IMG/VR virus record: IMGVR_UViG_3300006071_000101
Coordinates: 1-22,849 of that record
Source of the DNA: a virus
Length of the DNA stretch: 22,849 nucleotides
Reading direction: 5' to 3' (one strand)
Shown piece by piece: positions 3,948 through 22,849 of the stretch. Both the position numbers and the translations under genes were made by a program. Numbering within the stretch: the first letter of the stretch is position 1; each line of letters starts with the position of its first letter. Under the pieces are notes generated by a model that saw only the letters and a program-made list of their open reading frames with translations, did no database searches and was not told where the DNA came from.

Positions 3948-4904
3948 ATGAAGTTTTCTCCCCAAGAATTTAGAAACGGTTCAATCATCCCATCTGTTCT
4001 CAATGGAAAGGTTGATTCTTCCGTCTCTAGCCTAATAGGTAAATCAGAACCTGTTTCATTCGGTGGCGGTCAATACAAGCGGAAACCAAATTTCCTCATG
4101 TGTCCCCCAAAATACTTGTCCACGGCTATCCCGAACAACAAGTTTATGAAGGGTCAGAAAATTGATACTGAACGTGCCATGCGTCAGTACGCTCGCATCA
4201 AGAGACTCATTACTGCTCTCGGTGTTAAAGTCATTGAACTTCCTCCAACCAAAGGGGCACAAGATCAGCACTTTGTTGCTAACCTTGGACTCTCGGTAGA
4301 TCCGTTTATCTTCCTAGCCAAGATGTCTGCTCCTGGTCGAACCATCGAAGAAGAACCTGGTCGCAGATTCTTTGAGAAGATGGGTTATACAGTTCTCCAA
4401 CCTCCTCACTATTGGGAAGGCGAAGCTGAAACAAAACACTGGAAAGACAAAACGTATTTTGGCGGCTATGGAAAATTCTCCGATTGGAAAGCCCAAGAAT
4501 GGATTTCCAAAAAGGGTGGTATCGAAATCATACCTATGCGAATGGTGAGTGATGATCTCTACCACTTGGATTGCTGTATCCATGTCCTAGACAAAGAAAA
4601 CCTGATGGTTTGTCGTAGTGGCATTGATTCGGAATCATTTAAGAGATTAGAAAAACTCGCCAATATCATTGTTGTTCCCAAAGAGATGGAAGCAACTGGT
4701 GCTACCAATCTGATCCGTATCCCTGACAAAAACATTGTGATTAGTGGTATGTTCCAGCCAGAGTATGGTCAGTATCGCAATTCAATGGAATGGATGCTTA
4801 CTACAATGGACAAATTCAATAACTCTGTTATTTTTGCTGACATTGATGAAGCTGATAAAAACGGAGCCGATTGTTCATGCCAAGTAATGCACATGACTTT
4901 CTAA
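3948..4904 (+). CDS. Guanidino-group enzyme, DDAH/amidinotransferase superfamily
   Basis: A 318-residue protein with the landmarks of the pentein fold that acts on guanidino groups (dimethylarginine hydrolase, arginine deiminase, amidinotransferases). After ELPPTKGAQDQHFVAN (97-112), WEGEAE (156-161) stands where these enzymes have their acidic FEGGD/EAGD motif. H206 in YHLDCC is the candidate catalytic His. NGADCSCQVM (305-314) near the C-terminus gives C311 (or C309) as the nucleophile, matching the GGVSCMS ending of bacterial DDAH. All three catalytic landmarks are present and in order, so it is probably active. Substrate is unknown: free arginine derivatives, agmatine or a protein arginine are all possible. 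Its 3' end overlaps the next gene. Confidence 0.8.
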   Translation: MKFSPQEFRNGSIIPSVLNGKVDSSVSSLIGKSEPVSFGGGQYKRKPNFLMCPPKYLSTAIPNNKFMKGQKIDTERAMRQYARIKRLITALGVKVIELPPTKGAQDQHFVANLGLSVDPFIFLAKMSAPGRTIEEEPGRRFFEKMGYTVLQPPHYWEGEAETKHWKDKTYFGGYGKFSDWKAQEWISKKGGIEIIPMRMVSDDLYHLDCCIHVLDKENLMVCRSGIDSESFKRLEKLANIIVVPKEMEATGATNLIRIPDKNIVISGMFQPEYGQYRNSMEWMLTTMDKFNNSVIFADIDEADKNGADCSCQVMHMTF

Positions 4905-9131: not shown

Positions 9132-9148
9132 TCACCAACCCCAACACC

Positions 9149-9283
9149 ATGAAAAGATCCGACGCAATCCTTGCTTGGAACCGCTCCAAGCAACTCCAAT
9201 CCCTAACCCTCCGCTTGGCAATCCTGGCGGCATTAGCGGCCATCCTAGCGGCAAGAATCGCTTATCTATTAACCAACAACTAA
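9149..9283 (+). CDS. Tiny single-pass membrane peptide (44 aa)
   Basis: ATG 9149 to TAA 9281-9283. A basic N-terminus (MKRSDAILAWNRSKQ) is followed by a Leu/Ala/Ile-rich helix (LTLRLAILAALAAILAARIA) that would span or lie in the inner membrane. The 17-base leader is TCACCAACCCCAACACC, with no G. Could act on the host envelope; holin-type function is possible but unsupported. Confidence 0.55.
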   Translation: MKRSDAILAWNRSKQLQSLTLRLAILAALAAILAARIAYLLTNN

Positions 9284-9309
9284 AACCCAACCCCAACCCA
9301 CTAAAAAAC
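9284..9309 (+). promoter_or_regulatory. G-free A/C leader
   Basis: The 26 bases before ATG 9310 contain no G and one T, starting AACCCAACCCCAACCC. Similar CAACCCC words precede 9149, 10338 and 10560. Probably an unstructured SD-independent initiation region. Confidence 0.45.
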
Positions 9310-9600
9310 ATGAAAATCAGCAAAGCAGAATTGGAAGGCTCGATTAAGAGACTCAACACCCTTACGGGAGCCAACCCCGAACCCTACACCAGGACGGAAG
9401 ACGGAAAATTCCAAGCCAATGTCGGCACTTATTATCTCGCAGGAGCTTACGGAGGCTGGAAGTTGGAAAAGATCGTTTCCGATACGGGAGGCGTAACCGA
9501 TCCACTACGATGCGGTTATGTCTCTAAAAAAGAGCTTTATAATCTGATCTGGGCCTTCATGAATGGCATCGACCTTGCCCAATACCAGGCAAGCAAATAA
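9310..9600 (+). CDS. Conserved phage hypothetical protein
   Basis: Ninety-six residues from ATG 9310; the longer frame upstream from 9073 is a shadow of two other genes. Sequence pattern: KAELEGSIKRLNTLTGANPE, PYTR-x2-DGKFQANVGTYYLAGAYGGWKLE, then GGVTDPLRCGYVSKKELYNL. This order (a helix ending LN-x-LTG, PYTR, then N-x-G-x-YY-L-x-GAYGG, then a C-terminal helix) is familiar from a widespread phage family of unknown function that is usually encoded in clusters of small early genes. Preceded by a G-free leader and followed by the cysteine-rich protein. Confidence 0.8.
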   Translation: MKISKAELEGSIKRLNTLTGANPEPYTRTEDGKFQANVGTYYLAGAYGGWKLEKIVSDTGGVTDPLRCGYVSKKELYNLIWAFMNGIDLAQYQASK

Positions 9601-9619
9601 CCCCAAACACCGAACCAAA

Positions 9620-9624
9620 AGGAG
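9620..9624 (+). promoter_or_regulatory. Strong Shine-Dalgarno site
   Basis: AGGAG within AAAAGGAGAAAAC, five bases before ATG 9630. One of only two textbook SD sites in this gene train. Confidence 0.8.
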
Positions 9625-9629
9625 AAAAC

Positions 9630-10310
9630 ATGACAACATACAACTTCCATTTCACGCCGGTGAGCGACAACGTAAAAACGGGAGCCATGCCCGTGACCAC
9701 GTCAACAGCGTCAACGTGCCCCGACAAATGCCCCTTGAAAAAAGGGGGATGTTACGCAAAAAACTCTTTTCTCGGGATGCACTGGAAAAAAGTCACGGAC
9801 GGCAGTAGGGGGGAAAGCTTCACCTCTTTCCTTAAAAAAATAAGATCAATTCTTCCTGGTACGTTATGGAGACACGGACAAGCCGGCGACTTGCCAGGCA
9901 AGGGCGACCGCATAAACGCCCGTGACCTGGTACGCCTAGCAAAAGCCGCACGGGGAACGAGAGGATTCACCTACACCCACAAACCCCCGACCGCCGACAA
10001 TCTGAAGGCTATCCGAGCCGCTACCCGTGAAGGTTTCGTGATTAACTTGTCAGGAAATAGCTTAAAACACGCCGACCGACTTTCCCGTCACAGATTGCCA
10101 GTTGTGGCAGTACTTCCCTCGGAGGCGGTGAAGGTAAAAAATCTGACCACGCCCCAGGGACGTCCAGTTGTAGTTTGCCCAGCGACCAGAAGCGAGTTCA
10201 TAACGTGTAAAACGTGCGGTCTATGTTCCAAGGCTGACCGCCCCTTTATCATCGGATTCCCAGCTCATGGCACTATGTCAGCAAAGGCCGATGCAATCGC
10301 CAACAACTAA
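9630..10310 (+). CDS. Cysteine-rich conserved phage protein, possible Fe-S/radical-type barrel
   Basis: 226 residues; start fixed by a textbook SD. It belongs to a widespread but uncharacterised phage family with the N-terminal signature STCPDKCPLKKGGCYAK (C30, C34, C41) and a C-terminal cluster C183, C193, C196, C199 (VCPATRSEFITCKTCGLC). Between them are alternating strands and helices (GFTYTHK, FVINLSGNSLKHADRL, PVVAVLP) that read like a TIM-type barrel. The GCYA step resembles the CxNCYA site of phage Gp37/Gp68-type radical-SAM-like proteins, so a metal or Fe-S site is likely; enzymatic activity is inference. The gene looks richer in GC than its neighbours. Confidence 0.75.
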   Translation: MTTYNFHFTPVSDNVKTGAMPVTTSTASTCPDKCPLKKGGCYAKNSFLGMHWKKVTDGSRGESFTSFLKKIRSILPGTLWRHGQAGDLPGKGDRINARDLVRLAKAARGTRGFTYTHKPPTADNLKAIRAATREGFVINLSGNSLKHADRLSRHRLPVVAVLPSEAVKVKNLTTPQGRPVVVCPATRSEFITCKTCGLCSKADRPFIIGFPAHGTMSAKADAIANN

Positions 10311-10337
10311 CCCCAACAGCCCAAACACCATAACAAC

Positions 10338-10538
10338 ATGAAACTACACCCTAGCATAACTGAAGACCGAATCATTGAAGCAATCGAAACTGACGATATG
10401 GAAGGAATATGCACCGCTTGCGGTGAATCTTCCTCTTCACCTTGTGAACCCGATGCCAGGAACTACGAATGCGACTCGTGCGGAGCTTTCAAGGTTTACG
10501 GAGCCTCCGAGCTTCTCTTTCACCTCCCTTTAATATAA
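10338..10538 (+). CDS. Zinc-ribbon small protein (conserved in phages)
   Basis: Sixty-six residues. ITEDRIIEAIETDDMEGIC leads into a zinc ribbon with C25/C28 (CTACG) and C45/C48 (CDSCG), C36 between them, then FKVYGASELLFHL. This layout (helix, GxCxxCG, EPDARxYECxxCG, VYGAEELL) is shared by many phage small proteins of unknown function. Preceded by an A/C-rich leader with one G. Confidence 0.75.
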   Translation: MKLHPSITEDRIIEAIETDDMEGICTACGESSSSPCEPDARNYECDSCGAFKVYGASELLFHLPLI

Positions 10539-10559
10539 CCCCAACCCCAACCTAAAAAC

Positions 10560-10757
10560 ATGAACATACAAACCGCCGCCGATATTCTTTACGGAAATGC
10601 CGTAGAACGAACCACGCTGACGTTTAAGCCTAACTTGGAGGAATTCCAACCCGTACGAGCAAAGAGCATCCAGGATAGCTTGGAAAGCGTAATTGCAACG
10701 TGTGAAGCACTGAACCGAGAGATTGAAGCGATAAAATACACCTTGGAGAACAAATAA
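10560..10757 (+). CDS. Small helical protein
   Basis: Sixty-five residues, MNIQTAADILYGNAVERTTL followed by a long predicted helix (IQDSLESVIATCEALNREIE), likely coiled coil. Leader CCCCAACCCCAACC plus TAAAAAC, no G. The next gene begins one base after its stop. No family recognised. Confidence 0.65.
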   Translation: MNIQTAADILYGNAVERTTLTFKPNLEEFQPVRAKSIQDSLESVIATCEALNREIEAIKYTLENK

Positions 10758-10758
10758 C

Positions 10759-10977
10759 ATGAACGACAACGAAACAATCTGCAAACATTGCAACATTCCA
10801 AAAGGTTGGCACATTATCCCTAAGCTGAATTGCCCAGGGTCACGGGATGGAACATACCAAGGAGGAATTTGGTTTGAGCCATTGGAAAATGAACCAGAAG
10901 ATGGACAAGATGACCCAGGATCAAATGAAGTCTGGATCACCGCCGCCGACCTTTGCATGAACTACTCTAACGAATAA
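10759..10977 (+). CDS. Small Cys-containing protein
   Basis: Seventy-two residues. An N-terminal CKHCNIP-x11-NCPG (C8, C11, C25) is followed by an acidic linker (ENEPEDGQDDPG) and an aromatic end. Resembles the N-terminal pattern of the protein at 11797 (CxCGLPxxxH ... WCP), suggesting the two are distant paralogues or share a metal-binding fold. Function unknown. Confidence 0.65.
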   Translation: MNDNETICKHCNIPKGWHIIPKLNCPGSRDGTYQGGIWFEPLENEPEDGQDDPGSNEVWITAADLCMNYSNE

Positions 10978-10999
10978 AACCACTAACTAACTGAAACAA

Positions 11000-11004
11000 A
11001 GGAG
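11000..11004 (+). promoter_or_regulatory. Strong Shine-Dalgarno site
   Basis: AGGAG within CAAAGGAGAAAATA, six bases before ATG 11011; it decides the start of this tiny gene. Confidence 0.75.
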
Positions 11005-11010
11005 AAAATA

Positions 11011-11163
11011 ATGAACCCCACGCCATATCAAATAATATTAACCGCCGCCTTTTTAGGCTATCATGTAACGGAATACCAAGCCGTCGAGATCACCGCCCTA
11101 TGGAGAAAATCATGGGACAGCATGGAGAATGCCATCAGGGACTACTTTGCCGCCTACGAATAA
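11011..11163 (+). CDS. Small protein (50 aa) with strong SD
   Basis: ATG 11011 to TAA 11161-11163. MNPTPYQIILTAAFLGYHVT followed by an amphipathic region (EITALWRKSWDSMENAIRDY). The textbook SD, protein-like composition and fit between neighbours make it a real gene. Several ACCGCC words lie inside the coding sequence. No family recognised. Confidence 0.65.
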   Translation: MNPTPYQIILTAAFLGYHVTEYQAVEITALWRKSWDSMENAIRDYFAAYE

Positions 11164-11193
11164 CCGCCGCCGCAGACCCTAACTGATACAAAT

Positions 11194-11445
11194 ATGAGCA
11201 AAATAACATTAGGAAAAAACATGGTAAACGGATTCTTTTCCGTTGCAGATGGTGACATTTACACGCTGGCAGATGGAACCGCCGCCGTAGTAACAGCAGG
11301 AGGAGGGAATTATTGGACGTTACGCCATGCCGCTGCCGATGGAAAAGCCGACTATACCAGGCCACCAGTTCCCGAATGGGAGAATGTGGATGGTCAGTCT
11401 GCAATGGTACATATGATAAATAGGGAGTATTTTCTCCATAACTGA
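11194..11445 (+). CDS. Small beta-rich protein
   Basis: Eighty-three residues, starting MSKITLGKNMVNGFFSVADG and rich in Gly, Thr and aromatic residues, as in a small beta-barrel (DIYTLADGTAAVVTAGGG). Ends in MVHMINREYFLHN. Leader: CCGCCGCCGCAG then CCTAACTGATACAAAT. No known family. Confidence 0.65.
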   Translation: MSKITLGKNMVNGFFSVADGDIYTLADGTAAVVTAGGGNYWTLRHAAADGKADYTRPPVPEWENVDGQSAMVHMINREYFLHN

Positions 11446-11457
11446 ACCGCCGCCGCC
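11446..11457 (+). promoter_or_regulatory. ACCGCCGCCGCC leader
   Basis: The whole 12-base gap between a TGA stop and ATG 11458 is ACCGCCGCCGCC. Related ACCGCCGC words end two other leaders (12265, 12522). Confidence 0.45.
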
Positions 11458-11559
11458 ATGAGTAAAACATCACAACTAACCCTTAACTTGGTCTGCATGA
11501 TGCGAAACCCGAAAGCATGGAGATTCTACCTTTCGGGAATCCGTAGAGCCTTAATCTAA
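11458..11559 (+). CDS. Tiny basic peptide (33 aa)
   Basis: ATG 11458 to TAA 11557-11559: MSKTSQLTLNLVCMMRNPKA, then WRFYLSGIRRALI. Basic and amphipathic with an aromatic core; too short for a domain call. It fits exactly between neighbours and is preceded by the ACCGCCGCCGCC leader, which supports translation. Confidence 0.5.
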   Translation: MSKTSQLTLNLVCMMRNPKAWRFYLSGIRRALI

Positions 11560-11590
11560 CCACCACCGCCAACCCTTAACTGATACAGCT

Positions 11591-11797
11591 ATGAACGAAA
11601 AAACCTCCGCAGAACCAGAATCTGTTATTTTTGTAAAAGAAGTAACACCCGAACAAAAAGCAATCCTTGACAAAATTCTTATAGAATTAATTAAGGAAGA
11701 GAGATTTTATGAACCGCCGTCTATTTCAAAAATGATGCCACAAGGTGATATGACAGATGAAGAATGGCAGGATGATTATTCTTTCTGGTGCGACTAA
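11591..11797 (+). CDS. Small acidic protein
   Basis: Sixty-eight residues, acidic, with a helical centre (PEQKAILDKILIELIKEERF) and a DMTDEEWQDDYSFWCD end. Leader contains TAACTGATACA, the same 11-mer as in the leader at 11180-11190. Its stop shares a base with the next start (TAATG). Function unknown. Confidence 0.65.
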   Translation: MNEKTSAEPESVIFVKEVTPEQKAILDKILIELIKEERFYEPPSISKMMPQGDMTDEEWQDDYSFWCD

Positions 11798-11994
11798 TGA
11801 ATCAAGAAATACAAGAATCTCTTGAGAAATTAAGTGATGAAGCAATGTGTAAATGCGGATTGCCTCGTTACACCCATAGGGAGCCGTTACTTTGGTGTCC
11901 TTCATGGTTCTTTGAAAATAAATGGCTATCCTGGCAAACATTTGAGCATAAAAAACACCCAAAACTTAACCACATAAAAAACAATGACCACTAA
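11797..11994 (+). CDS. Small Cys/Trp protein, similar pattern to 10759
   Basis: Start taken at ATG 11797, overlapping the previous stop by one base (TAATG), rather than GTG 11788. Sixty-five residues with CKCGLPRYTH-x7-CP (C18, C20, C34) and a Trp-rich middle (PSWFFENKWLSW). Likely metal-binding; see the related pattern at 10759-10977. Confidence 0.6.
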   Translation: MNQEIQESLEKLSDEAMCKCGLPRYTHREPLLWCPSWFFENKWLSWQTFEHKKHPKLNHIKNNDH

Positions 11995-12238
11995 AACCAC
12001 CGCCGCATTAACTGAAGTAAAAGCATTAATATCCAGCATCGAACCATTGTTCGCCAACTTGATACGAACATCAAAACATCACCAACTTGATACCATCCAG
12101 ATCAGCACCACACGAGCAAAGGAAATACACGCAGACTTAATTATTCTTAAAAAGAGATTGCAGGAAATTGCAACTTCTGAAACAAAAGCAGAGTCAACAA
12201 TTGACAGGCATCTAGACAAGATGTTTGGTTTTAACTGA
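11984..12238 (+). CDS. Small helical protein
   Basis: Eighty-four residues, a two-helix Thr/Ala-rich N-terminus (KTTAALTEVKALISSIEPLF) and a long charged helix (RAKEIHADLIILKKRLQEI). Coiled coil likely. Start overlaps the previous gene by 11 bases. No family recognised. Confidence 0.65.
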   Translation: MTTKTTAALTEVKALISSIEPLFANLIRTSKHHQLDTIQISTTRAKEIHADLIILKKRLQEIATSETKAESTIDRHLDKMFGFN

Positions 12239-12264
12239 AACGCAACCCCACAAACCGCCGCAAC

Positions 12265-12501
12265 ATGAAAACCGATTACACTTGCAAAAACGAAGAGTGT
12301 CAGCACGACTTTGAAGTCGATTTTGAGCCAGCAACCCGAAACCGAGGGATGCATGGGACTTTTGAGGATGCCGAAAAAGGATCATCAGCATCATGCGACC
12401 CAGGAGAATGCCCAGAATGTGGGGAGGAGGTTTCTACCGAGGATGTAGAATCCGATTGTATGCCCGACCCCGACGATTACATGGAACCTGACTGGGATTG
12501 A
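12265..12501 (+). CDS. Acidic zinc-ribbon protein
   Basis: Seventy-eight residues. Cys pairs at C7/C12 (YTCKNEECQHDFEVD) and C49/C52 (CPECGEEV), with C44 and C65 in addition, form a likely split zinc ribbon. The tail is very acidic (PDPDDYMEPDWD). Similar to FmdB-type ribbons in layout, but longer. Leader ends ACCGCCGCAAC directly before the ATG. Confidence 0.7.
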   Translation: MKTDYTCKNEECQHDFEVDFEPATRNRGMHGTFEDAEKGSSASCDPGECPECGEEVSTEDVESDCMPDPDDYMEPDWD

Positions 12502-12521
12502 ACCATAAACACCGCCGCAAA

Positions 12522-13127
12522 ATGAACGTCATTAAAAGCGTCTATGAATCCCAAGAAGAGATTCTAAAATCTATCCAGAATCTCCATTGTAAAGATGGAT
12601 TTGATTGTGATATGACTTATGGAAACGGATCATTCTGGAAAAATCTTCCAAAACCTATTCTATGCTTTGATATTCAACCTCAAAAGCCAGAATGCATACA
12701 GGGAGATAGCCGTTGTCTACCTTTACTTAAAGAGTCTCTCAATAGCATGGTATTTGATCCTCCCTTTTTGACGTATGTCAAAGGGGGAAGAGATCACAAA
12801 GAAGGAAAAGTTGCTATGACAGCTAGATTCGGTGGATATTGGTCATACACCGAGTTAGAGGATCATTACAGAGACTCAATAAGCGAGGCATACAGGGTAT
12901 TAAGACCGAAAGGTCACCTTGTCATTAAATGTCAGGACATCATCCACAATCACAAAATGCACAGCACCCATTACAATACGATTGCATGGGCTGAAAGCGA
13001 AGGGTTCAGATTAGCAGATTTATTCATTCTTGTGGCTTCCCACAGAATGCCATCACCACAAAAAGGAACACAAAAACACGCAAGGATATTCCATAGCTAT
13101 TTCCTTGTTTTCCAAAAAACAAAATGA
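12522..13127 (+). CDS. Orphan DNA methyltransferase (DPPF type)
   Basis: Start taken at ATG 12522 after an ACCGCCGCAAA leader; an upstream TTG at 12498 is less likely. The 201-residue protein has TYGNGSFW (32-39) in the place of the SAM-binding motif, FDIQPQ at the end of the next strand, and VFDPPF (77-82), the catalytic motif of amino (N6-adenine or N4-cytosine) methyltransferases, followed by LRPKGHLVIKCQDI. No separate target recognition domain and no restriction gene are visible. It may protect phage DNA or alter expression. Its stop overlaps the next start (ATGA). Confidence 0.85.
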   Translation: MNVIKSVYESQEEILKSIQNLHCKDGFDCDMTYGNGSFWKNLPKPILCFDIQPQKPECIQGDSRCLPLLKESLNSMVFDPPFLTYVKGGRDHKEGKVAMTARFGGYWSYTELEDHYRDSISEAYRVLRPKGHLVIKCQDIIHNHKMHSTHYNTIAWAESEGFRLADLFILVASHRMPSPQKGTQKHARIFHSYFLVFQKTK

Positions 13128-13297
13128 GAGCAACACAATACAACGGAGACCGCCCGAATCTTAACTGGTGCGTGTTCCTTTTATTTCTCTACAAAGAGTA
13201 TGATTGGAACTTGACATCACCAAAATTTCGATCAACATATTTTCCCTTCAAAAAAGTCTTGCAAGGGACTAAAACATCAACCACATTAACACGATGA
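13124..13297 (+). CDS. Small basic protein (57 aa)
   Basis: ATG 13124 overlaps the previous stop, and its own TGA overlaps the next ATG (ATGA at both ends). MRATQYNGDRPNLNWCVFLL then FLYKEYDWNL and a basic Thr/Ser end. Aromatic and basic; no domain recognised. The double coupling argues for a real gene. Confidence 0.6.
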   Translation: MRATQYNGDRPNLNWCVFLLFLYKEYDWNLTSPKFRSTYFPFKKVLQGTKTSTTLTR

Positions 13298-13512
13298 CAA
13301 CCACTGAAACACCTGACACATTCACCGCCGAGCCTATCACCGCCGTCGAGACATTCACCGCCGCACCAAAGACTAATGCATTCTTGGGTCTATACGTTCC
13401 GCTTGAGTTAAAGGCAAAAATCCATGCCGCATCAAAAGCCGAGCGTCGATCAATGTCTTCATTTGCTGTTGGAGTCTTTGAGGAATACTTCAACGAACCA
13501 GTAACCCAATGA
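13294..13512 (+). CDS. Ribbon-helix-helix-like protein
   Basis: Seventy-two residues. A Thr/Ala/Glu/Pro N-terminal tail, encoded by repeated ACCGCC words, leads to FLGLYVPLELKAKIHAASKA and ERRSMSSFAVGVFEEYF. The strand-helix-(S)-helix pattern (VPxELxAKIHxxSKAERRSMSSFxxxxxEEYF) matches CopG/Arc-type DNA-binding proteins. A small regulator of this operon is likely. Coupled by ATGA on both sides. Confidence 0.7.
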   Translation: MTTTETPDTFTAEPITAVETFTAAPKTNAFLGLYVPLELKAKIHAASKAERRSMSSFAVGVFEEYFNEPVTQ

Positions 13513-13583
13513 GCAAGACCATCGCCGCATTGATTTTGATTGCATCTCTAATCGCTTTAGCTGTACTTACAATGCCACGATGA
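13509..13583 (+). CDS. 24-residue membrane peptide
   Basis: MSKTIAALILIASLIALAVL plus TMPR: one hydrophobic helix with a basic flank. Overlaps the previous gene by ATGA and the next by ATGA, so the frame is enforced on both sides. One of the shortest plausible genes here. Confidence 0.5.
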   Translation: MSKTIAALILIASLIALAVLTMPR

Positions 13584-13726
13584 AAGAAGGACTTTACAAA
13601 AATATCCAAAAAAAGAGGGAACGCATCGCCGCTGGTTCTGGAGAGAAGATGAGGAAGCCAGGATCAAAAGGAGCACCTACTGCAAAGGCTTTCCGAGACT
13701 CCAAGAAAACCGCTAAAAAGAAATAA
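13580..13726 (+). CDS. Lys-rich phage peptide (48 aa)
   Basis: ATG 13580, overlapping the previous stop. MKEGLYKNIQKKRERIAAGS then GEKMRKPGSKGAPTAKAFRD and a KKTAKKK end. The pattern (GLYxNIxxKRxRIAAGSGEKMRKPGSKGAPT) is familiar from small phage proteins often encoded near virion genes. Likely nucleic-acid-binding; role unproven. Confidence 0.75.
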   Translation: MKEGLYKNIQKKRERIAAGSGEKMRKPGSKGAPTAKAFRDSKKTAKKK

Positions 13727-13728
13727 CT

Positions 13729-13992
13729 ATGGCAAGCGAAAAATGGCAGACAAAAGCTGGTAAAAATCCGAAAGGTGGCTTAAATGCCGCTGGAAGAGCA
13801 AGCTATAACAAGGCTCATGGGGGGCATCTCAAGCCTCCTGCACCTAATCCCAAGACCAAATCAGATGCAGGACGTAAAGCCTCATTTTGTGCGAGGATGA
13901 AAGGGATGAAGGCAAAGTTGACCAGTGCAAAGACTGCTAAAGATCCGAACTCACGCATTAACAAAAGCCTCCGAGCATGGAAATGCCACTAA
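13729..13992 (+). CDS. DUF6321-like Lys-rich phage protein
   Basis: Eighty-seven residues: WQTKAGKNPKGGLNAAGRAS, then a basic middle, then SFCARMKGMKAKLTSAKTAK and DPNSRINKSLRAWKCH. This matches my recall of a conserved phage family (DUF6321) by the motifs KAGKNPKGGLNxxGR, CARMKGMK and INKSLRAWxC. Position two bases after the previous Lys-rich peptide suggests paired function, perhaps in the virion. Biochemical role unknown. Confidence 0.85.
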   Translation: MASEKWQTKAGKNPKGGLNAAGRASYNKAHGGHLKPPAPNPKTKSDAGRKASFCARMKGMKAKLTSAKTAKDPNSRINKSLRAWKCH

Positions 13993-14037
13993 CCAATTTC
14001 CTTTGGAAATTCATCCAAGGATTAACCAACAACAACC

Positions 14038-14217
14038 ATGTCACACACACTAGCAGAACTAAACGAAATCGCACAGGGAATAGCCAACAAGCTCGGTCAC
14101 ATCAGTCAGGAGCTTCTTTTGGAGATCGAAGCACTCATCAACAAGAAGGATTGTTCACAAAACCCCTGCCAAAACCAACAAGCTGTATCGGATGCTACCG
14201 AGACCCCTGCTGTTTAA
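14038..14217 (+). CDS. Small helical protein (59 aa)
   Basis: ATG 14038 after ACCAACAACAACC; no SD. MSHTLAELNEIAQGIANKLG, then a long helix (ISQELLLEIEALINK) and a Gln/Cys tail. A frame in another phase over the same bases is Arg/Thr-rich and looks like a shadow; this one is preferred for its clean helical composition. No family. Confidence 0.65.
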   Translation: MSHTLAELNEIAQGIANKLGHISQELLLEIEALINKKDCSQNPCQNQQAVSDATETPAV

Positions 14218-14224
14218 CAAATAG

Positions 14225-14404
14225 ATGAAAGCACTCTTTGAACGGATGAAAGGGATGTTTCAGCCTATGCAGATTAAGGCACTCCCTAACGAGACTTTGA
14301 TCAATACTCGCAAGCTGTCACCAGCAAAGCGTAAATCGATCAAGACAGAGGCTACCAAGCCAGTAACAAAGGGTCGCAAGCCCACAACAAAAAGGAAAAA
14401 GTAA
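14225..14404 (+). CDS. Lys-rich protein (59 aa)
   Basis: ATG 14225 to TAA 14402-14404. MKALFERMKGMFQPMQIKAL then a strongly basic C-terminus (PAKRKSIKTEATKPVTKGRK). It shares composition, not clear sequence, with its neighbours at 13580, 13729 and 14406. Possible DNA-condensing or virion-internal role. Confidence 0.6.
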   Translation: MKALFERMKGMFQPMQIKALPNETLINTRKLSPAKRKSIKTEATKPVTKGRKPTTKRKK

Positions 14405-14405
14405 G

Positions 14406-14513
14406 ATGCCAACGAAGAAAATGCCAAAGATGGAGAAATCCAAACCTTCCTCCAAGGCTACAAAGATGAAAGCCGCTTCATCCATGATGAACAAAGGCTA
14501 CAAGAAGAAGTAA
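14406..14513 (+). CDS. Tiny Lys/Met-rich peptide (35 aa)
   Basis: ATG 14406 two bases after the previous stop; MPTKKMPKMEKSKPSSKATK then a MKAASSMMNKGYKKK end. Met, Lys and Ser make up most residues. Last gene before the perfect inverted repeat. Confidence 0.55.
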   Translation: MPTKKMPKMEKSKPSSKATKMKAASSMMNKGYKKK

Positions 14514-14527
14514 AAACCTTCCTGTTT

Positions 14528-14562
14528 GCTCCTAGAGGGACATGAACAAACCCTCTAGGAGC
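14528..14562. other. Perfect 12-bp inverted repeat (hairpin) between operons
   Basis: GCTCCTAGAGGG (14528-14539) and CCCTCTAGGAGC (14551-14562), with an 11-base loop. It separates the small-gene train from the recT operon. There is no T-run after it on the plus strand, so it is terminator-like but not a standard intrinsic terminator; it could also be an operator or an RNA-processing site. Confidence 0.6.
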
Positions 14563-14573
14563 TACTAGCAGGA

Positions 14574-14585
14574 GCAACCACGCAC
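14574..14585 (+). promoter_or_regulatory. Leader word GCAACCACGCAC
   Basis: Lies 11 bases before the recT ATG. The identical 12-mer is at 17874-17885 before another start, and AGCAACCAC is at 17657-17665 before a third. A shared SD-independent leader element is suspected. Confidence 0.45.
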
Positions 14586-14596
14586 CCAACAAAAAC

Positions 14597-15400
14597 ATGA
14601 ATAACACATTAGCGGTATCCAGTCAACCATCGATGGGAGACATGGAAAAGATGGCAGTTGCCATCGCAAAGTCAGGTCTATTCGGGATGAAAAGCCCAGA
14701 ACAGGCACTAGCATTAGGACTCCTAGCAGTTTCAGAGAACAAGCCATTCGCCAGCATTTGTGCTGAATATGATGTCATCCAAGGCCGTCCTGCTCTCAAG
14801 AGTCAGGCTTGCCTAGCTCGATTCCAACAAGCCGGGGGAACAATCCAATGGATCACCAGATCCGATAAGGAATGCACCATAGAGGGCAAGCACCCCGCTG
14901 GTGGAACTCTCCAAGTCACTTGGACATGGGACAGGGCGCAAGCCGCTGGACTGACCAGCAAGCAGAACTGGAAGCAATACCCAACCGCTATGCTTTCTAG
15001 CAGATGCGTTGCCGAGCTTGTCAGGGCGATCTACCCTGCTTGCCTTAATGGAGTCTATCTCGCTGAAGAGGTGCAGGATTTTGATACCAAGCCGCTTCGT
15101 ATTGAGAAGCCAGAGATCAAGGTGGAAGCCCAGGTGGTTGCAATTGAAGACGCTGTGCCTACTGTTGCGGAGCTTGTAGAGGCAAGCATGAAGGCAGCAG
15201 AAGAACAAAACCCGCTGACTACACTCTCATCCTTGATGTGGGATGCCGGTATTGAAGACTCTCATGTCATCGAGTTCCTCATCGCCAAAAAGGCTATCAA
15301 GGACAGGAGTGTTCTCCTCAAGGATGTCAACCCCAAGGTCATCGCTCGCATCATTGAGAAATGGGACGATGTTTTGGCTTTCAAACCAGCACTCTCATGA
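14597..15400 (+). CDS. recT: RecT family single-strand annealing protein
   Basis: 267 residues. The core reads MAVAIAKSGLFGMKSPEQAL, FASICAEYDVIQGRPALKSQ, LARFQQAGGTIQW, WTWDRAQAAGLTSKQNWKQY, then MLSSRCVAELVRAIYPACLN and GVYLAEEVQDF. These blocks, including the 'IQGRPALK' step and the terminal GVYxxEEVQD, are typical of RecT annealases. RecT coats single strands and pairs homologous DNA. The C-terminal 90 residues are a helical extension. It works with the exonuclease at 15989 and SSB at 17283 of the same operon. Confidence 0.92.
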   Translation: MNNTLAVSSQPSMGDMEKMAVAIAKSGLFGMKSPEQALALGLLAVSENKPFASICAEYDVIQGRPALKSQACLARFQQAGGTIQWITRSDKECTIEGKHPAGGTLQVTWTWDRAQAAGLTSKQNWKQYPTAMLSSRCVAELVRAIYPACLNGVYLAEEVQDFDTKPLRIEKPEIKVEAQVVAIEDAVPTVAELVEASMKAAEEQNPLTTLSSLMWDAGIEDSHVIEFLIAKKAIKDRSVLLKDVNPKVIARIIEKWDDVLAFKPALS

Positions 15401-15431
15401 TCCGTAACCACAATTAAACGCAAAAAATAAT

Positions 15432-15893
15432 ATGGGAACAACATTTTCCGACAATGGCACGATAAGAAACATTCCTGCTGAAACAATAAACAAATCTCTA
15501 CAAGAGAAACACGAAAAGGATTTATCAGTATTGGTAGTCAACGAATCAACCAAAAGGTTTGAGAAAAGCCTTACAGATACAGAAACAATGGTTGAAAGAG
15601 CAAAATCAGCAAGAGAGGCAATGGATGTTTTGGCTGATTCCGTTAAAGTTGCATGGATTGATTATTCGGAATCCGTCCAAGAATATATAAACTCAATACG
15701 ACAAAAGAAAATATCTGCTGAATTAGAAACAAAACAAATGATGGCATTGTTTGATTCTTTTGCCAGGTTCTCAAATGACCCTCAAAGGGAAATCGAATTG
15801 AAGAAGCTGGAGCAGTTTGCAGATGTTTGTGAGCGTTTAAGAAAACTGAATGATTCTGGAATCCTTGAAAAAATAGCAACAATTATTAAGTAA
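15432..15893 (+). CDS. Helical protein between recT and the exonuclease
   Basis: 153 residues, almost entirely helical and charged (DTETMVERAKSAREAMDVLA, YINSIRQKKISAELETKQM). Coiled coils are likely. No motif recognised. It looks AT-richer than the flanking genes. Position between two recombination genes suggests an accessory role. Confidence 0.75.
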   Translation: MGTTFSDNGTIRNIPAETINKSLQEKHEKDLSVLVVNESTKRFEKSLTDTETMVERAKSAREAMDVLADSVKVAWIDYSESVQEYINSIRQKKISAELETKQMMALFDSFARFSNDPQREIELKKLEQFADVCERLRKLNDSGILEKIATIIK

Positions 15894-15894
15894 C

Positions 15895-15987
15895 ATGAAA
15901 ACCAAAAAAACAAAGACCCAAGAGTATAAATACACTCCAGCAGAAAAATTGCTTTTTGCTTACAGAGCAGCACACGTAAAAAAATAA
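15895..15987 (+). CDS. Tiny basic peptide (30 aa)
   Basis: ATG 15895, one base after the previous stop; MKTKKTKTQEYKYTPAEKLL then FAYRAAHVKK. Ends just before the exonuclease start (15989). Basic with a short aromatic helix. Tight spacing is the main evidence. Confidence 0.5.
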   Translation: MKTKKTKTQEYKYTPAEKLLFAYRAAHVKK

Positions 15988-15988
15988 T

Positions 15989-17044
15989 ATGGACGAGCGT
16001 AACGGAAAACCATCAGCAAGCGGATTCTCCCGACTTGCCCTATGCCCTGGTTCTTGGAACCTAGAGCAGACACTCCCCCCACAGGAGGAGAACAAGTACA
16101 TGGCACTAGGCACAGCAGTCCACGCTGTCCTAGCTGGTCAAGCAGAGTTTGATACTCTCACCGAGGATGGTCAGGACATCGCCACAAGATGCCTCTCCCA
16201 ATTCTCCGAGATGATCGGTCAGTTGGATCTAGGGGAAAGAACCAAGGAGGTTATCGAAGAGAGATTCTGGTATGATGATCTCTTCTCTGGAGCTATTGAT
16301 AGGATCGACTTCTTTGGGGAAGATACAGCAGTAGTCACGGACTATAAAACTGGTCGTGTAGCCCAATCTGGAGCCGCTGAAAACTATCAACTCCGAGCCT
16401 ATGCCGTCCTAGTCAAGAAGGCATTCCCTAAACTCAAGAGCATCTACGTTGCCATTATTCAGCCTTTATCCGCTGGCAAGACAATCGCTGAATACAACGA
16501 GGAGGATCTCGCCAGAGCAGAAAAGGAAATTGTTGGCATCGTTCATGCTTCCCAAAAGCATGATGCTATACGAACTCCTTCTAATGATGCGTGTAAATGG
16601 TGCAGGGCAAAAAGCATATGTCCAGAAGTGCGTCAGACGCATAATGAGATTCAAATAGTCTCTGGTGCTGTTGCTTCTCGTCTATCAAATGATGAGATCC
16701 TAGCCATTGATGAAAAGGCCGAGGTAGTTCTTGACTTCATTGAAGAAGTTAGGAAGGAGATGAAAGCTAGAATGATGGCAGGACAACAATTCGCTGGACG
16801 TTCACTAACTGAAGGACGTAAAGTAAGGAGTGTTTCGGATACTCAATCTGTTATTTCTGCTCTTTCTGGTATCGTTGAACAATCTGACGTGCTTGCTTGC
16901 ACAAAGATTTCAGTTGCATCTCTTGAGAAAGTCTTTGCCAAAGCCAAGGGACTTAAAGGGAAAGAAGCCAAAGAAAAGTTTGAGGATGCCCTCGGTTGGC
17001 TCATCGAAACAACAACTGGTGAGCCTTCCATCAAACGGAATTGA
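15989..17044 (+). CDS. Cas4/RecB-like PD-(D/E)XK exonuclease with Fe-S ligands
   Basis: A 351-residue nuclease. H45 (GTAVHAVL), D104 (GAIDRID), D118/K120 (TDYKTG) and Q134 (QLRAYA) form the PD-(D/E)XK active site in the RecB-family order. C19 (LCPGS) together with C202, C205 and C211 (CKWCRAKSIC) are placed like the four ligands of the 4Fe-4S cluster in Cas4 and AddB nucleases. The length fits the DUF2800-like phage exonucleases that partner with RecT. It would resect DNA ends for annealing. No CRISPR genes are near, so it is a recombination enzyme, not a Cas protein. Confidence 0.88.
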   Translation: MDERNGKPSASGFSRLALCPGSWNLEQTLPPQEENKYMALGTAVHAVLAGQAEFDTLTEDGQDIATRCLSQFSEMIGQLDLGERTKEVIEERFWYDDLFSGAIDRIDFFGEDTAVVTDYKTGRVAQSGAAENYQLRAYAVLVKKAFPKLKSIYVAIIQPLSAGKTIAEYNEEDLARAEKEIVGIVHASQKHDAIRTPSNDACKWCRAKSICPEVRQTHNEIQIVSGAVASRLSNDEILAIDEKAEVVLDFIEEVRKEMKARMMAGQQFAGRSLTEGRKVRSVSDTQSVISALSGIVEQSDVLACTKISVASLEKVFAKAKGLKGKEAKEKFEDALGWLIETTTGEPSIKRN

Positions 17045-17249
17045 TGATCAAGGGGAAGGTTATGCTCTTGCTATCACTTATATGGGACGAGATTGGATCG
17101 TTCTCTACAAGGATGCTGGCAACTTCACAGCCTTCCCTGCTGATCAAAGGAAATCAAACATTCATCAAGCTAGAAAAGTCATGAAATATCTCATGGTCGA
17201 AGGATTCATAAATCCCGAAAACAATGAGCCAACAATGTCAGTGCAGTAA
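17019..17249 (+). CDS. Small protein overlapping the exonuclease end
   Basis: A 76-residue frame if GTG 17019 is the start, overlapping the exonuclease by 26 bases; ATG 17082 would give 55 residues but would cut into a predicted beta pair (YALAITYMGRDWIVLYKD). The rest is helical (KSNIHQARKVMKYLMVEGFI). The start is uncertain; the downstream part is convincingly coding. No family recognised. Confidence 0.6.
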   Translation: MSLPSNGIDDQGEGYALAITYMGRDWIVLYKDAGNFTAFPADQRKSNIHQARKVMKYLMVEGFINPENNEPTMSVQ

Positions 17250-17282
17250 AAACAACAAAACAACAAGATAAATAATAACCAT

Positions 17283-17642
17283 ATGTCATTCACAATATCA
17301 ATCGACGTAACGAAAATCGACAAGTCACTCCTCAAGAGTGTCACCAAGAAGGATGGGACAAAAGCCACATATCTCAACCTTATTTGCTGGCCCAACCGAG
17401 ATGGTCAGGACAAGTTTGGCAATGATGGTTCAGTTAAGCATTCCTTGACGAAGGAACAACGTGATGCAGGGATCAAGTCAGAGATCCTTGGAAACTACAA
17501 AGTGAAGCAGGAACAGGATTCCGTATTCCCCCCTGGCTTTGCCGAGAAGATCAAGCCAGCACCAGCATTCAAGAATCGTGCCCCTAAACCACAGCAGGAT
17601 GATCCATTCGGTGACATTGCCGAGGACGAGATCCCTTTCTAA
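17283..17642 (+). CDS. SSB-like single-strand DNA-binding protein
   Basis: 119 residues. The N-terminal part (TISIDVTKIDKSLLKSVTKK, then YLNLICWPNRDGQDKFGNDG) and the central YKVKQEQ are compatible with a small OB-fold. A Pro/Gln linker leads to an acidic tail ending DEIPF, the hallmark C-terminal tip of SSB proteins that recruits partner enzymes. Position three genes after recT supports this. It is shorter than bacterial SSB. The leader has AAC repeats, no SD. Confidence 0.75.
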   Translation: MSFTISIDVTKIDKSLLKSVTKKDGTKATYLNLICWPNRDGQDKFGNDGSVKHSLTKEQRDAGIKSEILGNYKVKQEQDSVFPPGFAEKIKPAPAFKNRAPKPQQDDPFGDIAEDEIPF

Positions 17643-17669
17643 CCCATAACCAAGCAAGCAACCACCAAA

Positions 17670-17864
17670 ATGAACGAGTATATTTACATATTGTATTACA
17701 AGATTGACTATGAAGGACAATCTGTTGTTGGGGTCTATTCCTCTTTAGAAAAAGCTCAATTTGCTTCTGATTCTCAACCGAAAGAGAATCTTTTCATAGC
17801 AAAAGTAAAACCTGACACAGAAATCGACCTTGATTCTCCTTTTACTTATACAGCAACCATTTAG
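17670..17864 (+). CDS. Small beta-rich protein
   Basis: Sixty-four residues: MNEYIYILYYKIDYEGQSVV then VYSSLEKAQFASDSQ and an alternating strand end. The strand-helix-strand order is typical of small phage beta-alpha-beta proteins. Leader contains AGCAACCAC. Function unknown. Confidence 0.65.
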   Translation: MNEYIYILYYKIDYEGQSVVGVYSSLEKAQFASDSQPKENLFIAKVKPDTEIDLDSPFTYTATI

Positions 17865-17889
17865 TCTGACCAAGCAACCACGCACAATT

Positions 17890-18105
17890 ATGGAAGAGCC
17901 AACAGAAAACGAAGCAAAGCTAATGGCACAAATTGACTTCCTAAAAAGGGATGTCAAGGAGCTACAGGAGAATCTCCGATTTCACAGATGTGATATTTGG
18001 GATGTTGAGGAGGCATTAGAGACCCTTGTAACAAGGTATCTCATTAGTTCCCTCATCGTCTTGGGATTGGTTGTGTCAGTTGTCGTAATGTTCATCCGCA
18101 AATGA
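17890..18105 (+). CDS. Coiled-coil protein with C-terminal membrane helix
   Basis: Start ATG 17890 is chosen because an upstream in-frame start lies inside the previous gene. Seventy-one residues: a coiled coil (KLMAQIDFLKRDVKELQENL), then a C-terminal helix (YLISSLIVLGLVVSVVVMFI) with RK after it. It is tail-anchored. A role in lysis or in organising replication at the membrane is possible but unproven. Stop overlaps the next start (ATGA). Confidence 0.65.
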   Translation: MEEPTENEAKLMAQIDFLKRDVKELQENLRFHRCDIWDVEEALETLVTRYLISSLIVLGLVVSVVVMFIRK

Positions 18106-21293: not shown

Positions 21294-21511
21294 TCAAGCA
21301 ACCAACCACGCTTAAAGAATTAAAAAAGTTCCGCTATGCCGTAACGGAAAGCCTTCCCCAAGGACAGGCATACGATCCAGCCCAATGTGCCATGATCGTC
21401 TATGAGAGAAAGAGACCCAAGTACCATTGGCAATGCTCTCGCAAGTCAGGGTACGGAAAGGATGGTCTGTGGTGTGCCAACCACAAGAATGATCCAGTGG
21501 CTATGTCTTGA
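21290..21511 (+). CDS. Small Cys/His protein, last gene of the operon
   Basis: Seventy-three residues. C33, C49, C62 and H65 (CAMIVYERKRPKYHWQCS ... LWCANH) could bind zinc. Basic overall. It ends convergently with the minus-strand glycosyltransferase-like gene, the two 3' ends overlapping by 11 bases. No family recognised. Confidence 0.65.
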   Translation: MIKQPTTLKELKKFRYAVTESLPQGQAYDPAQCAMIVYERKRPKYHWQCSRKSGYGKDGLWCANHKNDPVAMS

Positions 21512-22849
21512 GCTTGGTGAATTCTGGACGCTTGAACTTGCCTTCATAGTTAAGGGTTTCTAGTTCCAATAATGGGAGCTTCCGTTCAGTCAACCATTCC
21601 CTAGCCAGCTTGCAGTTGCGTAGATTGGAAGGATCTCTCTGTAAGCCAGCACCCTCCCACAAGGAAGGATGCCATTCATGGTAGATCAAATCCTCAATCT
21701 CTCTACCGCCAGCAGATTTGATTAGCTCACGCATGATACGATCCCAACTATGCCGTCCTAGCACCATGTCAGGGAATAAGTGATGGTTCCTTCTCCACCA
21801 TCCAACTCTCATAGCAAAGAAGTCACACCCTGCATACTTTGCCCCTGCACTTACCCGATCATATGGCAGAGGCTCATCTATCCGTTTGAAGTCTCGACGA
21901 TAAGAATAAGCAGGGAGTGTTCCCTCTAACCTTTGGATAAGATTGTTGGCTATACAAGTGTCCGTATTGGTTAGCAAGAGTACCGCTTCATCGTTACGTC
22001 CAACACAAGCAAGGCGTAAAATATCCTTGATCATGGGTATCCTACGAGTCTCTCCAGGTATAACTTCAGCCGAGGATCTTACAAAGCAGTTGTCATCCAA
22101 ACCTAGATCGACACAAGAGATAGCTTGCCATGTCTTTGCCGCAAGATCATTACGCCTTTTCTCATCTCCAATAGCCCAAGGCATCTTCTGATATACATGG
22201 ACAATCTCTGGATACAGAATGGTAGGCTTATCCTTACGCCTGATCTTCTCCAAGATTCCAACCACATCTCTAGGGAAGTGCCTGTATCGTGTATAAGAAG
22301 CATAGAATGGTCTCCACGCTGTCCCATGCCATAGGGAGGGTCTATCTGTCACGATGGCATGAACTGGCTTATCTGTGGCGTATGAGAGGTGTAGCGGCCC
22401 ACTATCAGTCAAGATCATGGCATGGGTATTAGGATGATCCATAATACCAAGGAGATCATAGAACTTCTCCGCTTTGATCTTACCGAGATCGACGATATGG
22501 AACTCTGGAAGTGAGTTATTTAGGATCTCCCATAGCAATTCTTGATACTGGAATGGGGAGGAAGTGCCACCAGTAGATACCACAATCCAAGGCTTATCCT
22601 TTGGCAATCCCTTCACTAGCTTCTTTTCCCTCTTGGCATCCCTCTGATCGAATACTAGCTTTGGTTGTTTAGGCCAGAGATCCAGCTTGTTGCATAGTCT
22701 CCACGCATCCATCTGGAATGAATCACAGATAATCTGTGGCCCGACATGATTGCCGTACACTTGGCTAACGATCACATCCGTAATCCCAACTACTTGGGTA
22801 GTGATTACATTATCCTCCTTGAATTTCTCCAATGCACCCATGACATCCT
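21501..22849 (-). CDS. Two-domain glycosyltransferase-like protein, N-terminus off the edge
   Basis: At least 446 residues from the first internal Met (ATG 22841), but the frame is open to the right edge and the first GT9 lobe seems missing, so the gene probably begins outside. The N-terminal part has the glycosyltransferase family 9 donor-site signature TDSGPLHLSYATDKPVHAIV (145-164), as in heptosyltransferases. The C-terminal part (about 270-446) has LLLTNTDTCI, AGCDFFAMRVGWWRR and PDMVLGRHSWD, like a second nucleotide-sugar transferase (GT-A-type) domain. It may glycosylate DNA, a virion protein or host surface sugars; which one is unknown. Opposite orientation to the operon suggests its own control. 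Confidence 0.75.
   Translation of the reverse strand, partial: DVMGALEKFKEDNVITTQVVGITDVIVSQVYGNHVGPQIICDSFQMDAWRLCNKLDLWPKQPKLVFDQRDAKREKKLVKGLPKDKPWIVVSTGGTSSPFQYQELLWEILNNSLPEFHIVDLGKIKAEKFYDLLGIMDHPNTHAMILTDSGPLHLSYATDKPVHAIVTDRPSLWHGTAWRPFYASYTRYRHFPRDVVGILEKIRRKDKPTILYPEIVHVYQKMPWAIGDEKRRNDLAAKTWQAISCVDLGLDDNCFVRSSAEVIPGETRRIPMIKDILRLACVGRNDEAVLLLTNTDTCIANNLIQRLEGTLPAYSYRRDFKRIDEPLPYDRVSAGAKYAGCDFFAMRVGWWRRNHHLFPDMVLGRHSWDRIMRELIKSAGGREIEDLIYHEWHPSLWEGAGLQRDPSNLRNCKLAREWLTERKLPLLELETLNYEGKFKRPEFTKLKT

Follow-up and report, generated by a model that had tools for sequence, protein, structure and literature searches.

Early module and relatives

The window, meaning the whole stretch of DNA analysed, is the entire IMG/VR virus record IMGVR_UViG_3300006071_000101, a linear fragment of 22,849 bases. 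Between positions 9132 and 17889 it carries a train of early genes, including those for a DNA methyltransferase, a RecT-like annealing protein and a RecB-type exonuclease (Table 1), and it is the short gaps, or leaders, in front of their start codons which are described here. These are rich in A and C and mostly lack a Shine-Dalgarno (SD) site, and some of them carry a short word, AGCAACCAC, which in the family of this phage is associated with the starts of unrelated genes.

No close relative of the window was found in the phage collection, either by DNA or by terminase protein, and two scans of genomes for a host, using the terminase and a terminase alignment, found no relative. Relatives of the terminase are encoded on 122 virus contigs, with the best 80 being approximately 78-100% identical across the protein, and the phage family is an uncultured, freshwater one. 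In relatives of about 50 kb the terminase is followed by an early module running in one direction. Early modules were fetched from 10 records, three of them near-identical, which gives nine distinct modules counting the window. The genes of the relatives were called by a simple script based on coding score, and each relative record therefore contributes few leaders.

Composition and conservation of the leaders

Eight of the gaps had been described in a sequence-only reading as nearly free of G and T, and this is the case, their pooled composition being A 45.6%, C 43.4%, G 5.5% and T 5.5%. When every gap of the train as far as 17889 is included, the values are A 40.1%, C 35.5%, G 11.0% and T 13.4%, with the leaders at 11164, 11560 and 15401 and the 5′ parts of the gaps at 13993 and 14514 being less extreme. 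The bias is not found to an equal degree outside the leaders, with A+C at 75.6% in the gaps versus 55.9% in the coding sequence of 9132-17889. The 20 nucleotides (nt) upstream of 18 gap-preceded starts contain 19.4% G+T, as against 44.5% in coding 20-mers, and a value this low before starts was reached in 0 of 20,000 resamples of the latter. Internal ATGs are without the leader bias (upstream G+T 46.1%).

The + strand is A-rich in coding sequence as well (AT skew +0.2 to +0.3), so part of the leader bias is regional. This would be the point of departure for an explanation by strand-asymmetric mutation, in which any non-coding + strand sequence would drift towards A and C. Third codon positions within 9132-17889 have an A+C content of only 57% (0.57 versus 0.76 in the leaders), and leaders change more slowly than those positions, with an identity among relatives of 0.902 versus 0.677. 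Mutation bias is already largely refuted by these composition and substitution figures, and we consider it most improbable. The conservation of the leaders is comparable to that of first and second codon positions; A/C exchanges make up 45% of their substitutions versus 18% at codon position 3, and they carry more indels (12%). Where window leaders were aligned with those of relatives, most of the variation is confined to A and C.

The comparison with leaders of related phages places the A/C pattern across the family. Early-module leaders have an A+C content of 0.59-0.81, most being at least 0.76, versus 0.54-0.56 in coding sequence. Family early leaders have the composition A.425, C.336, G.113 and T.126, while family late leaders (A.394, C.237, G.123, T.246) have twice the T and less C.

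SD scarcity, start context and predicted openness

Textbook SD sites (AAAGGAG) are confined to the starts at 9630 and 11011, as had been observed from the sequence, and the 4-mer AGGA is present additionally before the start at 14038, so that SD 4-mers occur in 3/17 window leaders. Leaders of the type AAAAGGAG, the SD site of the DUF7227 gene, are seen again before early genes of relatives. The starts themselves hold where they can be checked, the homologous position in relatives being ATG in nearly all aligned cases. There is an A at -3 in 14 of 17 starts, at -6 in 13, at -12 in eight and at -13 in 13.

Family leaders are no better matched to the anti-SD tail than shuffled sequence (z -0.5). 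For the 3′ strand of helix 45 of 16S, pairing of family leaders gave z -3.3; this is a weak lead, the target having been picked after the words were seen and a generic tail used. Bases from -25 to +3 of window starts have a predicted unpaired probability of 0.72, as against 0.51 at random places (P ~1e-6), and the value falls to 0.50 when the leader is swapped for a random 25-mer of the region. The proposal that translation initiates here on unstructured leaders is therefore upheld in so far as these are poor in SD sites, have less structure than the sequence around them, are under selection and occur family-wide, with a role in translation being suggested by these properties. The further idea of a match to a phage factor was not borne out: no gene for bS21 or an S1 domain was identified in any of 11 family records (possibly incomplete), with positive controls, which would set this family apart from phages that take over translation with their own bS21 or S1.

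In another explanation the leaders would be nothing more than the usual SD-less ones of a host in which SD is scarce (Bacteroidota, Verrucomicrobiota, some Cyanobacteria), the words within them being functionless relics of duplication and descent. Bacteria in which SD sites are scarce and the anti-SD is intact are known among the Bacteroidota and some Verrucomicrobiota, and include Akkermansia and Verrucomicrobia bacterium IMCC26134 (PMC10783764). Among the sequences compared, phage lambda has SD sites, Akkermansia phage leaders are also A/C-leaning, and a plasmid of the Opitutaceae (Verrucomicrobiota) has SD sites at chance frequency. However, the leaders of that plasmid are not A/C-rich, from which it follows that a host-wide habit alone is insufficient for the pattern; those of two Bacteroidota phages are A/T-rich rather than A/C-rich, and the late leaders of the present family, with twice the T, depart from it too. 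Relics would also be expected neither to reach the excess of the word AGCAACCA described below nor to be conserved where the following gene is not. We regard this explanation as doubtful, although it deserves more credit than the other alternatives.

The start-associated word

In an unbiased screen of all 8-mers, AGCAACCA was the top start-associated word of the family (z 19.5), while the same screen on other phages returned top words which include SD-like ones. It is present in 60 leaders versus 1.4 expected from composition, approximately 40-fold. There are 99 family copies of AGCAACCAC, of which 85 are located 8-31 nt before the ATG of an open reading frame (ORF), compared to 16% for random places, and in unrelated phages just 2 of 16 copies lie at a start-linked distance. 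With GCAACCACGCA, all 26 copies are located 8-31 nt before an ORF ATG. The composition of the leaders fails to explain this association of AGCAACCAC with starts. The word precedes 10 protein clusters with no detectable similarity to one another, and since homologous leaders were counted too, the independent placements are nearer ten than sixty. Its most consistent placement is in front of the recombinase gene and of genes that follow the exonuclease, and its first base lies at a variable distance of 9 to 28 nt from the ATG. The sequence-only reading, while correct on composition, had missed this word as well as the covarying hairpin described below. A search of the open literature for AGCAACCAC together with 'phage' found nothing.

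Other recurring words of the region also exceed their frequency in shuffled sequence. CCGCCGC has 12 copies in the window, all on the + strand (0.5 expected on both strands), and ACCCCAAC has seven (0.8 expected). The early modules, about 90 kb in total, hold 93 + strand and two - strand copies of CCGCCGC, ranging from 2 to 20 per module among relatives. GCAACCACGC, present in all nine modules, has 13 copies, every one of them on the + strand. CCGCCGC was rejected as a leader signal; it is barely start-specific (24% versus 16% at random) and mostly intragenic, in the frame xCC GCC G in 90 of 145 cases, partly because Ala-Ala pairs avoid GCWGC. In the window it lies at 10573-13364 on the + strand only, mostly in Thr-Ala-Ala codons (ACC GCC GCC), and ACC before Ala is favoured in early genes (0.59) and not elsewhere (0.18). 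The heptamer TAACTGA has nine copies in the window, seven of them on the + strand at 10357-12238, and 0-2 in relatives.

Recombinase leader and hairpin

In the leader of the recombinase gene the AGCAACCAC word is found downstream of a hairpin. Stem arms were positioned manually, working outwards from the loop, and a ninth stem (L006), imperfect in its loop-proximal part, was excluded from the pair count. All eight distinct stems are fully paired with their own partner, whereas cross pairing reaches 54%, and 10 of 11 stem positions show 2-4 pair types; the loop sequence, (A/C)CATGAACAA, hardly varies in the family. The gene behind this constant leader is RecT-like or Erf-like depending on the record, so a leader can outlast the gene behind it. 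The recombinase core is exchanged between the constant leader and a constant C-terminal stretch of approximately 60-110 amino acids, as seen in the window (14597-15400) and at L003:2506-3177, L005:9623-10330 and L241:10033-10677.

This swap of cores brings in a serious rival, namely that the words are recombination linkers, a constant inter-cassette sequence offering short homology for recombinase-driven gene exchange, by which unrelated genes would inherit the same leader. The presence of AGCAACCAC before 10 unrelated clusters and the absence of several small early genes from some relatives agree with it. Linkers alone leave unexplained the openness of the leaders, the A at -3, -6 and -13 and the A/C-biased substitution, and the word keeps to start codons. 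As the explanation of the leaders it appears unlikely to us, but it is compatible with a role in initiation and both can hold.

A signal at the level of transcription is another explanation, in which the C-rich, G-poor leaders would load Rho or mediate antitermination, or the word would form part of a phage promoter. Such a signal would account for the strict orientation of GCAACCACGC along transcription and for C exceeding G, and in some relatives there is a T-run on one or other side of the upstream hairpin. The window hairpin has no T-run, the word can directly adjoin the ATG (its first base being 9-10 nt away), and the leaders are mostly 12-45 nt in length. Usual Rho sites are longer than this. 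The region has no excess of sigma-70 promoters (10 found versus 14.7 in shuffles) or of intrinsic terminators over shuffles, and no match to Rfam at gathering scores. We judge a transcription signal to be very unlikely.

Table 1. Genes and leader features of the window
Feature	Position	Strand	Remarks
Terminase-like gene	917-2842		
A/C leader TCACCAACCCCAACACC of gene 9149-9283	9132-9148	+	1/17 G/T; ATG conserved in 4 relatives
A/C leader with ACCCCAAC word, gene 9310-9600	9284-9309	+	1/26 G/T; 85-95% leader identity in relatives
A/C leader with SD site AAAAGGAG, DUF7227 gene	9601-9629	+	
DUF7227 gene	9630-10310	+	
A/C leader, gene 10338-10538	10311-10337	+	2/27 G/T; ATG conserved 6/6
A/C leader CCCCAACCCCAACCTAAAAAC, gene 10560-10757	10539-10559	+	1/21 G/T; ATG conserved 5/5
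Leader with SD site AAAGGAG, gene 11011-11163	10978-11010	+	
Leader with CCGCCGC and TAACTGA words, gene 11194-11445	11164-11193	+	
Leader ACCGCCGCCGCC, small gene 11458-11559	11446-11457	+	similar in L080
Leader, gene 11591-11797	11560-11590	+	
Leader with CCGCCGC, gene 12265-12501	12239-12264	+	
Leader ACCATAAACACCGCCGCAAA, methyltransferase gene	12502-12521	+	ATG conserved 4/4
DNA methyltransferase gene	start 12522, rather than TTG 12498	+	ATG conserved 4/4
A/C 3′ part of leader (gap 13993-14037), gene 14038-14217	14018-14037	+	ATG conserved 7/7
Hairpin of 11-12 bp, loop ACATGAACAAA, upstream of recombinase gene	14528-14562	+	stem covaries in family
Start-associated word AGCAACCACGCA, RecT-like gene	14573-14584	+	
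RecT-like annealing protein gene	14597-15400	+	
Leader, gene 15432-15893	15401-15431	+	
RecB-type exonuclease gene	15989-17044		
A-rich leader, gene 17283-17642	17250-17282	+	ATG conserved 2/2
Start-associated word AGCAACCAC, gene 17670-17864	17657-17665	+	
Start-associated word AGCAACCACGCA, gene 17890-18105	17873-17884	+	

Comparison with known systems

The nearest known kind of element is the start-associated sequence (SAS) of the cluster K mycobacteriophages, which includes an SD core (PMC3203893); in the open literature the term is found mainly around mycobacteriophages. As with the SAS, a short word is repeated in one orientation upstream of, and near to, the starts of many non-structural genes of unrelated families, is almost confined to one phage group and is linked to an inverted repeat at part of its sites. 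The SAS has a 13 bp consensus, GGGATAGGAGCCC, with the SD core, lying 3-7 nt from the start. AGCAACCAC differs in being SD-free, A/C-rich and loosely spaced, 9-28 nt from first base to ATG. In addition, the inverted repeats of the extended SAS were not regarded as evidence of RNA pairing, while the hairpin here covaries.

In Flavobacterium johnsoniae, positions -3, -6, -12 and -13 matter in a Kozak-like, SD-independent initiation (PMC6847099). The present leaders share with that system the absence of SD from most of them, the A at -3, -6 and -12/-13 and the low structure around the start, but unlike the A/T-rich leaders of Bacteroidota phages they have C in place of T, and specific words recur. 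Initiation of the Bacteroidota type also involves a host ribosome that hides its anti-SD in a bS21 pocket. A third likeness is to the C/A-rich (ACA) translation enhancers of enterobacteria, which are targets of GcvB and likewise C/A-rich, near the start and loosely spaced, with ACAA repeats working without SD (PMC3879156). The enterobacterial enhancers act alongside SD and in host genes, and neither plain ACA nor ACAA is enriched here in leaders beyond composition. TAACTGA, which recurs before some window starts, is also the heptamer of Beggiatoaceae repeats, where at least two tandem copies precede starts; that link was set aside, the copies here being single, mostly in the window and few in relatives.

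Leaders as probable initiation regions

Composition, predicted openness and conservation of the leaders, as well as the word and its association with starts, can be established from the sequence; from these we infer a role in translation, contact with the ribosome and an SD-scarce host. The leaders are probably translation-initiation regions working without SD pairing, in which a start-associated sequence specific to the family is combined with C/A-rich enhancers. Early genes would lie on what is apparently one polycistronic mRNA, in which 15-35 nt dominated by A and C precede each start, and because A and C cannot pair mutually the start would remain accessible to the 30S subunit. A Kozak-like context may come from the A at -3, -6 and -13, and the C/A-rich stretches may serve as an enhancer, probably through ribosomal protein S1 or by contacting the 30S subunit directly. 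To this the family would add AGCAACCAC(GCA), lying anywhere from 9 to 28 nt ahead of unrelated genes, either as a strong form of the enhancer or as a site for a factor setting the expression of these genes, while a few early genes in each genome would retain SD sites.

Several points weigh against this interpretation. All of the start codons are predictions, and the SD-scarcity of the host is likewise deduced. The identity between leaders may be inflated, as it was taken from BLAST-aligned segments and leaders carry the indels mentioned. The varying distance between AGCAACCAC and the ATG does not imply a fixed ribosomal contact, CCGCCGC is not simply a leader signal in that it lies mostly inside genes, and, as ACA and ACAA are not enriched beyond composition, the enhancer link rests on C/A richness.

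A stronger form of initiation without SD pairing is that AGCAACCAC is a true initiation signal which replaces SD for a set of genes, a start tag recognised by the ribosome or a protein with loose spacing, and coupled at the recombinase gene to the covarying hairpin (CAUGAACAA loop), which would control whichever recombinase is installed. This we put forward as a tentative and rather improbable extension. The occurrence of AGCAACCAC before unrelated genes points to a little-studied way to mark gene starts. For the question of how SD-less bacteria and phages do so, this family offers a natural, repeated and sequence-specific candidate element; since it is carried by unrelated genes, and early and late leaders are internal controls, simple reporter tests are possible.

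Other features of the family

Large conserved genes without a match in PHROGs are present at L178:6502-9117 (-), L178:4878-6200 (-) and window 21501-22841 (-), and the one of these whose product has 871 amino acids is also without a match in the phage collection. These genes belong to a lineage without cultured relatives. At 3948-4904 the window has a DDAH-like protein (dimethylargininase family, Pfam PF19420), a relative of which is found in L178 at the same position near the terminase. No tRNA genes were identified in the window by ARAGORN, while a tRNA-Gln(TTG) is present in relatives (L178:15733-15806, L218:15587-15660, L228:16455-16528 and L221:15761-15834), some of which have a tRNA-Trp or tRNA-Asn in addition. 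There is also strong avoidance of palindromes in the window and loci L171, L178, L218, L221, L228 and L239-L248, with GGWCC seen 10 times (0.04 of expectation), GCWGC at 0.15 and several GC-rich 6-mers absent. Such avoidance suggests that host restriction exerts a pressure, and it could be of use in finding the host.

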